NCBI GenBank assembly: GCA_945883625.1
Contig: CAMCXW010000003.1
Coordinates: 27,028 to 91,027 of the forward strand
Direction: 5' to 3'
Length of the DNA stretch: 64,000 bases
Source of the DNA: Spirosoma fluviale
GTDB taxonomy: Bacteria > Bacteroidota > Bacteroidia > Cytophagales > Spirosomataceae
Below, one piece after another: positions 27,648 to 52,367 of the stretch. The translations under genes were made by a program, and so were the position numbers. Position 1 is the first letter of the stretch, and every line of letters starts with the position of its first letter. Under the pieces are notes generated by a model. It made no database searches, had not been told where the DNA came from, and worked only from the letters and a program-made list of their open reading frames with translations.

Positions 27648-27721
27648 GGCGGGGTAGCTCAGATGGTTAGAGCGTTGGATTCATAACCCAAAGGTCGGCA
27701 GTTCGATTCTGCTCCCCGCTA
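27648..27721 (+). tRNA. tRNA-Met (CAT anticodon)
   Basis: Cloverleaf GGCGGGG...CCCCGCT-A, D-arm GCTC...GAGC, anticodon CAT at 27682-27684, T-arm GGCAG-TTCGATT-CTGCT. Confidence 0.93.
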
Positions 27722-27729
27722 CAAAAAAA

Positions 27730-27757
27730 AGACCTTGCTTTGCGAGGTTTTTTTTAG
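27730..27757 (+). terminator. Terminator after tRNA-Met
   Basis: ACCTTGC-TTT-GCGAGGT then T8 running into a heptamer array. Confidence 0.8.
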
Positions 27758-27797
27758 ACGTTAGACGCTAGACTCTGGACGTTAGACTCTGGATACG
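27754..27797. repeat. Heptamer repeat locus B (GAC type)
   Basis: tagacgt tagacgc tagactc tggacgt tagactc tggatac. Confidence 0.9.
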
Positions 27798-28266: not shown

Positions 28267-28343
28267 TTGGACGTCAGACGTTGGACGTTAGACGCTGGAC
28301 AGCAGATTATAAAGCTAACGTCTAATGTCCAACGTCTAAAGTG
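28267..28343. repeat. Heptamer repeat locus C, inverted arms
   Basis: tggacgt cagacgt tggacgt tagacgc tggac ... taacgtc taatgtc caacgtc taaag; 19-nt arms 28276-28294 / 28319-28337 with one mismatch. Confidence 0.9.
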
Positions 28344-48064: not shown

Positions 48065-48358
48065 ATGATCACACAATCAATCAAATCGTTGTTAACCTGT
48101 CTTTTGGTGGTATTTATTTTCAGTTATGTTAGTGAAGGAATATTATTAGCATTTGCCTTGAAAAAATCACGTCGTTCAAATTGGATAAAAATCGGCCTTA
48201 TCACGATTTTATTTCTAAGCTGTTTAGGCTTTATTATTGCTCCATATCATGTCTTTGGACAAACCGAGGCAGATGGTTTATATACGTTGGCCTTCACGTT
48301 TTATGCGCTCGTTATGGCGATTGGAAGTGGATTACGCATGTTAGACGCTGGACGTTAG
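48065..48358 (+). CDS. Small membrane protein whose last codons lie in a heptamer array
   Basis: 97 aa, three TM segments; C-terminal MLDAGR* encoded by TTAGACGCTGGACGTTAG. Confidence 0.6.
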   Translation: MITQSIKSLLTCLLVVFIFSYVSEGILLAFALKKSRRSNWIKIGLITILFLSCLGFIIAPYHVFGQTEADGLYTLAFTFYALVMAIGSGLRMLDAGR

Positions 48359-48443
48359 ACCCTGGACGTTAGACTTTAAATTCTAGCGTCTAATGTCTAA
48401 TGTCTAATGTCCAGGGTCTAACGTCTAGCGTCTATTGTCTAAC
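48341..48443. repeat. Heptamer repeat locus E (GAC type), 33-nt inverted arms
   Basis: Arms 48342-48374 and 48402-48434 are reverse complements at 31/33 positions, spacer 27 nt. Confidence 0.93.
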
Positions 48444-50884
48444 ACATTCGCCATTAATCGCCACGCCCCAGGCACTCCCGCAGGTAGTTGACGGAAGAAT
48501 ACAAGTCCTGTGTAAATGAATTGACCTTTTCCGTAACGAGCCACAGCAATATTTCCCTTTTGTTCCGCTTCACCCGGATCAGTAAATGCTAATGGAAATT
48601 TAAAGTTTGGATCGGATGATTCAGCTAAGTAAATACTGCGTTCTTGAACCCAATCAGCAAAATCAGATTCTTTTATCTCATTTGGTTTGTGAAAAATAGG
48701 AAGATCCACCAAGAATTTTGGTGTAGCTTCTTCTTTAGTAATTCGGTTACGGGTAATGGCCAAAGGGTATGGGCCCATTTGGCTTTTTAATGGACCTAAA
48801 TTACTCTGAGTGTTGTACTGAACCACATAATTTCCACCTTGCTCCACATATTTCATTAATTCTGCATGGGCATTTGGAAGGTAATCTATTGTATTATGTG
48901 CTCGAACACCTGTCAAAACCACATCATACTGAGCCAGATTCGTTGCCTTCAAATCAGATTCAAGTAGGTAATCCACTTGATACCCCATCTGTTCCAAACT
49001 TTCCGGTACCTTATCTCCCGCTCCTTTAATGTATCCAATGCGCTTACCTGTTTTCTTGAAATCAATATGAAGTAAATTGACAGTTACAGGTGAAAAATAA
49101 CGCTGTACAGGAATATGCGGGTAATTAATACTTTCCATTTGTAGTGAATCAACCCAATTTCCGCGGCTTGTTTCATAGGCCAATTGCAATTTCCAAGTCT
49201 CCTTACCATCAAATTTTTGATCTTTCTCGCGTACGGTAATTGGGACATTTTTGCTCATTCCCATGGCTAGACCTTCTGGAAGATCCAATGTTCCCAAACG
49301 AGTTCCGGCTTGATTAAATACATCAACTTTCCCCGCTGCGATGGCTCCCATGGCCTTTATTTGTATATCAAACGACTTAGAATCCCCCGAACCTTTCGGT
49401 AATAAAATGTTGGGATGATTGATTTGAAATATACTGCGTGGCGTAATCGCAATCGGTTGGGAATATTCCCCTTTAACTGGATCTACCACGAGCTCCTGGA
49501 TAGGCCGACTGATCTGTAATTTTTCCCCTTCGATGGTCAAAAAGGCATGAACCAATAGTGCAGGATCTGATGCTGCTTGGCCAATCTTCTCTTGATCCTT
49601 CACCACAAAATGCCCGGTTTCTTTGGTATTTACTAACCAATACGGCTGTGTGATTGATTGACGAACTAGTTGAGTATGGTTCCAATTGACACGTTTGTAA
49701 GGAACAACAGGCTCTTTTAACACCGTATCTTTTTCGCCAATAGCAAGTTTCAATGACGTCACATGAATCGGGCTACGAACGATAAATTCCGTTTTAATCA
49801 TCATGGGATCACCTTGTGCGATCGTTCCGCGATTTGTGTTTCCAGCAAAATGTATGCCTGCTGCTTGTACGATCCACGCATCAATTTGCTTGATCTTTTT
49901 ACTCTTCAAGTAGCTATCATCCAGTTTGTTCAACGCTTTACGCACTTGAATCATATCTGGGATGCTTAAATAAGGCTTTTCTGTTTGATAATTTCGAATA
50001 AGCAGTCCGATCATTCGCTCAATTTCAGCACCAGCTTGGCTAATTTGCCAATGGTTTGGCACTCCCTCTTCAATTGAATTTTTAGGTGCAACTCCTCCCA
50101 AGGTTTGAAAATATTCAGTTGACTTTCCATGATCTACGGCAAATCCAAAACCCTGTGATTTGTGCTGGCTCCGACTAAATGCAGCTAATTCCCCCGTGCT
50201 TTGGCCTATACTAGGTAAGAAATTTCCAATTTGAATCTTGAATTGATCTTCTGAGACCGTTGACGAACTACCAAAACGAAAGGTATTCCAAAGCAATCGC
50301 GTTGCTTTCCAAGGTTTGATATCCCCTTTCAATTGTTCTGGAAAGCGTTTTGGATCTGCAGCAGCCTGATACGCCTCAATCGCTAACACCGCCGAAGCCG
50401 AATGGTGTCCATGTCCCGCGCGTGCGTCAGGTGGAAAACGTGTGAATATGATGTCTGGACGTAGTTTACGAATGACATATACTAAATTGGAAAGCACTAA
50501 TTCTTTATTCCAAAAACTTAATGCCTCATCCGTAGACTTTGAAAAACCAAAATCGAAGGCCTGCGAGAAGTGTTGATTTGCGCCATCGATTTTTCGCGCA
50601 GCTAATAATTCTTGTGTTCGAATTAGGCCCAACGGGATGCCTTGCTCATCGCCGATGAGGTTTTGTCCCCCATCGCCACGCGTGAAAGCAAAGTAATTGG
50701 TTTCCCAATGTTGTTCTTGGGCGAACCAGGCCAACATATGTGTGCTTTCATCATCGGGGTGTGCGGCAATGTGCAGCACGGTACCAGTTGATTCAATGCG
50801 TTTTAAATTTTCCAATAATTGGAGTCCGTTTTGTGCCCACGCTAAACTAGGCATTAACAATAAAGCGAGAATTAGTCTTTTCAT
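48425..50884 (-). CDS. PIG-L family (LmbE-like) deacetylase, multidomain
   Basis: VLHIAAHPDDESTHMLAWF; HGHHSASAVLAIEAY; start in ATGA overlap with upstream gene. Confidence 0.92.
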   Translation of the reverse strand: MKRLILALLLMPSLAWAQNGLQLLENLKRIESTGTVLHIAAHPDDESTHMLAWFAQEQHWETNYFAFTRGDGGQNLIGDEQGIPLGLIRTQELLAARKIDGANQHFSQAFDFGFSKSTDEALSFWNKELVLSNLVYVIRKLRPDIIFTRFPPDARAGHGHHSASAVLAIEAYQAAADPKRFPEQLKGDIKPWKATRLLWNTFRFGSSSTVSEDQFKIQIGNFLPSIGQSTGELAAFSRSQHKSQGFGFAVDHGKSTEYFQTLGGVAPKNSIEEGVPNHWQISQAGAEIERMIGLLIRNYQTEKPYLSIPDMIQVRKALNKLDDSYLKSKKIKQIDAWIVQAAGIHFAGNTNRGTIAQGDPMMIKTEFIVRSPIHVTSLKLAIGEKDTVLKEPVVPYKRVNWNHTQLVRQSITQPYWLVNTKETGHFVVKDQEKIGQAASDPALLVHAFLTIEGEKLQISRPIQELVVDPVKGEYSQPIAITPRSIFQINHPNILLPKGSGDSKSFDIQIKAMGAIAAGKVDVFNQAGTRLGTLDLPEGLAMGMSKNVPITVREKDQKFDGKETWKLQLAYETSRGNWVDSLQMESINYPHIPVQRYFSPVTVNLLHIDFKKTGKRIGYIKGAGDKVPESLEQMGYQVDYLLESDLKATNLAQYDVVLTGVRAHNTIDYLPNAHAELMKYVEQGGNYVVQYNTQSNLGPLKSQMGPYPLAITRNRITKEEATPKFLVDLPIFHKPNEIKESDFADWVQERSIYLAESSDPNFKFPLAFTDPGEAEQKGNIAVARYGKGQFIYTGLVFFRQLPAGVPGAWRLMANVLDNRR

Positions 50885-52248
50885 GCGTTTAATTCGTTTC
50901 GTGACCACGGCTGGCGATAGGTTCTCGCCAACAAGGCTGTTGCCTCTGGATCGTTAATAACTGTTTTTGTTGATGGATCGTAGGAAAGCGGTCGGCCTAA
51001 TTTCATCGAAACATTGGCCAAAATACATGAGGCCGTTGAAATATGACCTTCTTGGATATCTGCGATGGGTTTGGTGCCTTTGTCGATGGCAGCTAGGAAG
51101 TCCAACATGTGTAATCTAGTTGCCGGAGCCGCATTTAATTCAATCCGATCTTCCGTTAAATCTTCCGGGTATTTTTCTTTCTCAAAGACACAATCGCCAT
51201 GTAATTTTTGCGCCTTCGGGTCCGTTGGCGTAAAATCATATTTCATCGTACTCATCCGCAAGGTTCCTTTTTCACCATAGATCGTAAGTCCCCATGGATA
51301 TTCAGGATCGGGAGGTGTTCCCCAGGTACGGTGCTGCCAAACACAATTCAGCCCATCGTATTCATAAACGGCCGTTTGCGTATCTGAAATGTTTGATTTG
51401 CCTTCTTTTTGAACATAGATTCCACCCTCGGAACTAATGCGCTTAGGCCAACCGAGCCCTAGCATCCAACGAGCGGTATCGAACATGTGGACACACATAT
51501 CACCCACGATGCCGTTTCCGTATTCATTGAATGTTCTCCACCAGCGCGTGTGAGGTAGTCCATCGTATGGACGCAATGGAGCGGGACCCGTCCACTGATC
51601 ATAGTCAAAAAAGTCAGGCACCGCCTGAATAGGTGGGTTACCATTGTTGCGCATGTGGTAATAACAATACATTTCCACATGAGCGATTTTACCTAATAAG
51701 CCTGCGTCAATAATATCTTTTTTGGCTTGAATTAAATGGGGAGTTGACTTGCGTTGTGTACCCACCTGCACCGTTTTGCCATATTTTCGGGCTGCAGCAA
51801 CCATGGCTTCCCCTTCTAAAACATCCACTGAAATAGGTTTTTGCACATATACATGGGCTCCTGCTTTCACAGCATCTATCATTTGCAAAGGATGCCAATG
51901 ATCCGGGCTTCCAATCAGGACAATGTCAAGTTGATTTTCAGCCAATAGCTTTTGGTAATTTCCATATAAACGGGGTGTTTTGCGGGATGTTTGACGTGCG
52001 GCAACGAGCTTTCCAGCCTGTGTCAACATGTTTCTATCTGGATCACAAAGAGCGATCACGTCTACCGGTGCCACTTGCATGAGCCTAAATAGGTCACTTT
52101 TGCCGTACCACCCCGCACCGATCAAACCGACACGTAGTGGTTTGGCAGGATTAACTAAATCGATTCCATGCGCCCCGAATGTCGAAAGCGCTAAACTTGC
52201 CGAAGCTCCTTTGAGGAAATGTCGGCGGTTAATGTTGAATAGGTTCAT
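50881..52248 (-). CDS. Gfo/Idh/MocA family oxidoreductase with Tat-like signal
   Basis: NRRHFLKGASASLALSTFG; LRVGLIGAGWYGKSDLFRLM; VYVQKPISVDVLEGEAMVAAARKYGKTVQVGTQRK. Confidence 0.95.
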   Translation of the reverse strand: MNLFNINRRHFLKGASASLALSTFGAHGIDLVNPAKPLRVGLIGAGWYGKSDLFRLMQVAPVDVIALCDPDRNMLTQAGKLVAARQTSRKTPRLYGNYQKLLAENQLDIVLIGSPDHWHPLQMIDAVKAGAHVYVQKPISVDVLEGEAMVAAARKYGKTVQVGTQRKSTPHLIQAKKDIIDAGLLGKIAHVEMYCYYHMRNNGNPPIQAVPDFFDYDQWTGPAPLRPYDGLPHTRWWRTFNEYGNGIVGDMCVHMFDTARWMLGLGWPKRISSEGGIYVQKEGKSNISDTQTAVYEYDGLNCVWQHRTWGTPPDPEYPWGLTIYGEKGTLRMSTMKYDFTPTDPKAQKLHGDCVFEKEKYPEDLTEDRIELNAAPATRLHMLDFLAAIDKGTKPIADIQEGHISTASCILANVSMKLGRPLSYDPSTKTVINDPEATALLARTYRQPWSRNELNA

Positions 52249-52253
52249 AGGTT

Positions 52254-52367
52254 GTCAGTTTTCAGTAATCAGTTGTCAGTATTCAGTCGCCAGTCACTAG
52301 TCGCTAGTCGTCAGTAATCAGTAGCCAGTTTCTACTCTCTACTCTCTACTCTCTACTCTCTACTCTA
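52254..52367. repeat. Heptamer repeat locus F: AGT-type array followed by CTCTACT array
   Basis: tgtcagt tttcagt aatcagt tgtcagt attcagt cgccagt cactagt cgctagt cgtcagt aatcagt agccagt ttctact (ctctact)x4. Confidence 0.95.

Follow-up and report, generated by a model that had tools for sequence, protein, structure and literature searches.

The inverted repeat at locus E consists most probably of two separate gene-edge heptamer arrays that were set face to face by a deletion, and not of a dedicated hairpin element; we give this reading a probability of about three in four. The locus lies in a window of 64,000 nt (the whole stretch of DNA analysed, from genome G000), where a 97-aa ORF on the plus strand converges on the gene of an 827-aa PIG-L-domain protein on the minus strand. 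Relatives of the PIG-L protein assign the window to the genus Aquirufa (Cytophagales), and the closest named records are freshwater MAGs, at 94-97% protein identity.

Arrays of the unit TRGACNN start a few bases from a gene edge, mostly at the stop codon and often providing its TAG, and two arrays at facing edges, both pointing into the intergenic space, form an inward inverted pair. At locus E, comparison with relatives shows the loss of a block of about 3.1 kb (Dabb, AMP-ligase, MadL and MadM), with the junction within the direct arrays behind PIG-L and MadM; recombination or slippage between these arrays probably caused it. The hairpin in the transcripts would then be a by-product and not the reason for the sequence, and it may incidentally shield or help define the 3' ends of both mRNAs.

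Arms and flanking genes of locus E

The arms (48342-48374 and 48402-48434) are inverted with 31 matches in 33 positions, and a repeat search lengthens them to 48342-48378 and 48398-48434 (34/37, that is 37 nt, 92% complementary and 19 nt apart). The coordinates, match count and gene directions given by the initial annotation were all correct, as was its remark that the rare unit TAGACCC stands opposite GGGTCTA: this unit accounts for 5 of the 182 units in G000, and two of the five are at locus E. In the window, TAGACNNTAGAC was counted 11 times against an expectation of 0.03. The features are the following:

48065-48358, plus strand: 97-aa ORF, no Pfam family; last codons and TAG stop (48356-48358) made by the array (...MLDAGR*)
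48341-48374, plus strand: left arm, TRGACNN array in the same orientation as the 97-aa gene, overlapping its stop
48375-48380, no strand: spacer TTTAAA between the arrays
48381-48443, minus strand: right arm, TRGACNN array in the same orientation as the PIG-L gene, overlapping its stop
48420-48428, minus strand: approximate position of the deletion junction, TAGACG overlap, standing for the ~3.1 kb (Dabb, AMP-ligase, MadL, MadM) retained by the sister species
48425-50908, minus strand: PIG-L domain protein, 827 aa; stop at 48425-48427, C-terminus LDNRR* encoded by the array

The TAG stops of both genes are array units, each inside its own arm, and the tails of the two proteins (MLDAGR* and VLDNRR*) are therefore coded by the arrays. 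The right arm is a chimera, in which the first units are those of PIG-L and the following ones belong to the array of MadM. Around the spacer, the minus-strand reading GACGCTAGAATTwAAAGTC is also present in the MadM/97-aa intergenic region of the sister species G006. Orthologues of the 97-aa ORF (E <= 0.001) were found in 24 of the 38 genus genomes searched, its own genome counted.

Heptamer arrays start at gene edges and run into intergenic space

Locus E belongs to a genome-wide family. The pattern TNGACNNTNGACNNTNGAC has 227 matches in G000, against 2 for the reversed pattern; in a first sample of congeners it is plentiful in G003, G006, G011 and G022 and lacking in most others. In 421 kb of G000, enrichment of short tandem periods is confined to seven, with 22 arrays at a looser threshold against 0-2 at the other lags between 4 and 13, and with 14 arrays against none at a strict threshold. 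Period 7 is also the only one enriched in samples of six congeners, several of which use other heptamer units (TAGATTA, GACTATC, AGAGTTA and others).

For the context of the arrays, the analysis covered the 421 kb of G000 together with parts of G006, G011, G022 and G043 selected for their array hits; long ORFs served as gene calls. Among arrays of at least three units, the 5' end is the one nearer the gene edge in 105 of 121 (binomial p about 2e-17); the median distance to the edge is 5 nt for the 5' end and 129 nt for the 3' end, and the arrays run into the intergenic space. Arrays at gene 3' ends mostly share the orientation of the gene (86, against 5 antisense), near start codons all 11 are antisense, and where an array overlaps a stop codon this stop is the TAG of the array itself in 42 of 44 cases. 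The intergenic arrays of G000 are distributed as 14 between convergent genes (3.9 kb), 9 between tandem genes (20.6 kb) and none between divergent genes (9.4 kb, 57 regions).

Where an array anchored by its 5' end at each of two gene edges points inward, an inverted pair arises automatically from the geometry. Within 200 nt we counted 34 inward pairs and one outward pair, the latter placed between two inward pairs, and a pattern search found the inward order in five genomes and the outward order in none. Inward pairs also recur behind single genes in tandem regions, some of them kept between species, and many arrays are solo, which in G011 is the majority.

Within the window, a tRNA (27648-27721) is followed by a terminator-like hairpin, and a plus-strand TRGACNN array (27754-27794) starts directly behind the T-tract of this hairpin; the anchoring thus extends beyond protein genes. 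An inward inverted heptamer pair lies between two minus-strand genes at 28268-28343, and G006, G043 and G022 each have one at the corresponding position. A further inward pair, with poorly matching arms, is found between convergent genes at 1983-2174. One intergenic region (52251-52294 and 52331-52366) carries two other heptamer families, TCAGTNN and TCTACTC, the latter in five copies. The longest array seen (L099, G000:C1:98804-99116) has 44 units, about 310 nt, and is located between convergent genes. In G006 (L141, 1520-1749), the far arm of a pair together with its spacer (about 66 nt) is present in three tandem copies downstream of a 192-aa gene, where G000 has two. Dispersed hairpins of the TGTAGAGACGCGATACTTCGCGTCT and CCCCAGGTTTTAACCTGGGG types, possibly REP-like elements, often stand directly behind the heptamer arrays of G011 (L175-L194) and G022 (L155-L174).

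Locus E is the apparent scar of a lost malonate block

The history of the locus emerges from comparison with the sister species G006, whose PIG-L is 97% identical. In that genome, the genes downstream of PIG-L on its own strand are Dabb, an AMP-binding ligase, MadL and MadM (Pfam assignments), and it is on MadM that the 97-aa gene converges. The ancestral order PIG-L, MadM, 97-aa gene is found in G003 (with an additional gene behind MadM), G006, G011, G022 and G042. MadM, a malonate transporter, was found in every one of the 16 genus genomes with completeness of 90% or more and contamination of 5% or less. It is absent from G000, a MAG 88.8% complete, in which searches also gave no match for MadL, no orthologue of the AMP-ligase (paralogues only, 25-31%) and for Dabb a single 32% paralogue.

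At the junction, the G000 sequence corresponds to the PIG-L end of G006 through TTAGACAATAGACG and then to the array of MadM from TAGACGCTAGACGT, with a 6-nt overlap, TAGACG; the loop of locus E, TTAGACGCTAGAATT, is that of MadM. This arrangement places the breakpoints of a ~3.1-kb loss within two direct heptamer arrays and, as shown by the comparison, locus E is the scar left by the deletion of a malonate block. The junction is unlikely to be an assembly error, because the two arrays of G006 share exact words of at most 14 nt and because the 91-kb contig continues on both sides of it. The locus provides a concrete case in which heptamer arrays border a block of genes that was lost, here one for malonate uptake and activation.

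The relatives also show to which genes the arrays belong. PIG-L has its terminal array in G006, G043, G011 and G003, though the next gene there is not convergent; G022 carries another heptamer (AGTCGCT) at the same place, and in distant congeners PIG-L ends in ordinary codons (e.g., ISNPNLK*). At the boundary between MadM and the 97-aa gene, both genes of G042 carry AGAGTGA-type arrays that point inward, and in G011 and G022 hairpin repeats adjoin the heptamers. In these sequences, the arrays go with genes and not with partner genes. The initial annotation had favoured inverted duplication or selection on pairing over two independently expanded arrays. This preference is not supported. In the relatives, the genes that carry the two arms are not adjacent, and each gene keeps or loses its array separately.

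A true inverted duplication, in which the second arm was made from the first, would account for the high identity of the arms; in G006 and other congeners, however, each arm is found at its own gene end with other partners adjoining, and the right arm derives from the arrays of both PIG-L and MadM. We rejected this explanation, which we regard as very improbable.

The arms of one locus are not specially matched

The proposal that the arms are selected for pairing was evaluated by comparing own arms with arms swapped within a genome. Over the 34 inward pairs, the summed similarity is 532 for own arms and 511 ± 14 for swapped arms (p = 0.075, a borderline value), and by duplex energy p is 0.16. 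Neither test is significant, own arms being not measurably better than swapped ones, and selection on pairing is not supported. An unrelated array (C6:49080) matches the left arm of locus E equally well, at 31/33, and it is one of eight other arrays that reach at least 30/33. In simulations with units drawn independently, two arrays taken at random reach at least 31/33 with a probability of about 0.10; with the left arm of locus E fixed, this probability is 0.027, and it falls to about 0.007 once the CC unit (TAGACCC) is also demanded, post hoc. The 31/33 and CC-unit probabilities are post hoc and concern the best of several window pairs, and are therefore weak evidence. The match is much less surprising given that both arms come from one degenerate repeat.

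Locus E comes third among 19 in duplex energy; its arms may therefore have been mildly homogenised, possibly after the deletion. Another explanation is quasi-palindrome correction, where a template switch of the replication machinery rewrites one arm from the other and so makes them match; it would explain the TAGACCC pair with no selection on the RNA. In agreement with it, the unit on the 97-aa side that reads GC in G006 has become CC in G000, and CC is also found on the other arm. This is nevertheless a single unit at a single locus, the arms still differ at 2 of 33 positions, and over the set of loci own arms show no clear advantage in matching; we consider such a correction unlikely.

The initial annotation had suggested a search for compensatory changes in relatives. 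Orthologous pairs at three other loci differ in unit number, in register and by one-sided substitutions, and in these few, indel-rich sets there is no clear case of compensation.

Both transcripts fold into a long stem

Folding of both transcripts, proposed earlier as a check, predicts a long stem on each strand, far more stable than those of shuffled sequences (-67.9 kcal/mol and z = -11.6 on the plus strand; -62.0 kcal/mol and z = -11.5 on the minus strand). Of the suggestion that the repeat acts as a bidirectional terminator or an RNA stem, the stem thus stands, as one that can form on both transcripts; a bidirectional terminator may still be present, but no U-tract or terminator-like site was found on either strand between 48000 and 48800. 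No Rfam family matches locus E. Intrinsic terminators are about as frequent in convergent regions with pairs (3/7) as in those with no arrays (15/49).

A hairpin selected at the 3' ends, in which complementarity of the arms is maintained to give both mRNAs a long stem as terminus or as protection, would fit the z of about -11.5 on each strand, the exclusively inward order in five genomes by pattern search and the pairs behind single genes in tandem regions. For Xanthomonas, transcript starts and stops were reported to be somewhat more frequent at G-quadruplex (G4)-forming heptamer repeats than at control repeats (PMC4692102). Against this explanation, co-evolution of the arms was not seen over the 34 pairs, the many solo arrays (most arrays in G011) have no partner, locus E has no U-tract, terminators are about as frequent where arrays are lacking, and orthologous pairs shift in register and in the number of units, while the only changes that stand out clearly are one-sided. 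The idea had no positive test in this analysis, and we find it rather improbable. These results show that the hairpin of locus E is strong and real and that the pairing itself bears no sign of selection. They also serve as a warning that, given directional repeats anchored at both gene ends, strongly folding inverted repeats between convergent genes can arise with no selection on pairing.

Comparison with known repeat systems

A literature search on repeats of Aquirufa returned nothing relevant. Cyanobacterial STRR sequences (short tandemly repeated repetitive heptamers, Calothrix) are, like the TRGACNN arrays, intergenic heptanucleotide tandem arrays, and their units are different. The REP/BIME extragenic palindromes of enterobacteria are located at gene 3' ends and in convergent regions, where they form stems; unlike them, the TRGACNN arrays have no fixed palindromic unit and are tandem heptamers, often solo. 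Integron attC sites were considered and set aside: GTTAGAC fits the GTTRRRY consensus, but the order is reversed and the arrays stand behind chromosomal genes.

The TAACTGA heptamer direct repeats described by MacGregor (2015; PMC4679880) in Beggiatoaceae, cyanobacteria and some Bacteroidetes share with the TRGACNN arrays the intergenic 7-nt direct repeat with stop codons and the dispersal over the genome. In Maribeggiatoa, however, TAACTGA is placed forward, just upstream of start codons (PMC4679880), whereas the TRGACNN arrays stand behind stop codons.

The closest known case is that of the GGGAATC and GGGGA(C/T)T heptamer repeats of Xanthomonas and Nostoc (Rehm et al. 2015; PMC4692102). These are degenerate, dispersed 7-nt arrays of two to tens of units, scarcer than expected between divergent genes and forming convergent inverted pairs (70 in Xcc and 75 in Xac); no function was identified for them, and the loci that flank them are more stable (PMC4692102). 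The TRGACNN arrays resemble the Xanthomonas GGGAATC heptamers in their polarity, overlap with stop codons and inverted pairs, and share with the Rehm repeats a degenerate dispersed 7-nt unit, found on the sense strand near stops and antisense near starts, rarity between divergent genes and frequent convergent inverted pairs. They differ in being concentrated between convergent genes in G000, in their high turnover among congeners and, compared with the raised stability around the Rehm repeats, in the deletion between arrays seen at locus E. Moreover, TRGACNN is not G-rich and no G-quadruplex is expected; lacking a G-tract of three, it falls outside the G4 subclass.

The stop-codon-anchored polarity of the G-rich Xanthomonas heptamers is thus now seen with a unit unable to form G-quadruplexes, and since TRGACNN shares the positional rule with no G-rich unit, G-quadruplex formation is not needed for this rule. 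As a tentative idea, which we hold with considerable doubt, the heptamer arrays of Aquirufa might come from a process with a fixed direction, beginning at gene edges, growing inward and independent of the unit (TRGACNN, GACTATC, AGAGTGA and others in different congeners), the same that made the GGGAATC repeats of Xanthomonas; if so, G-quadruplexes would not be its cause.
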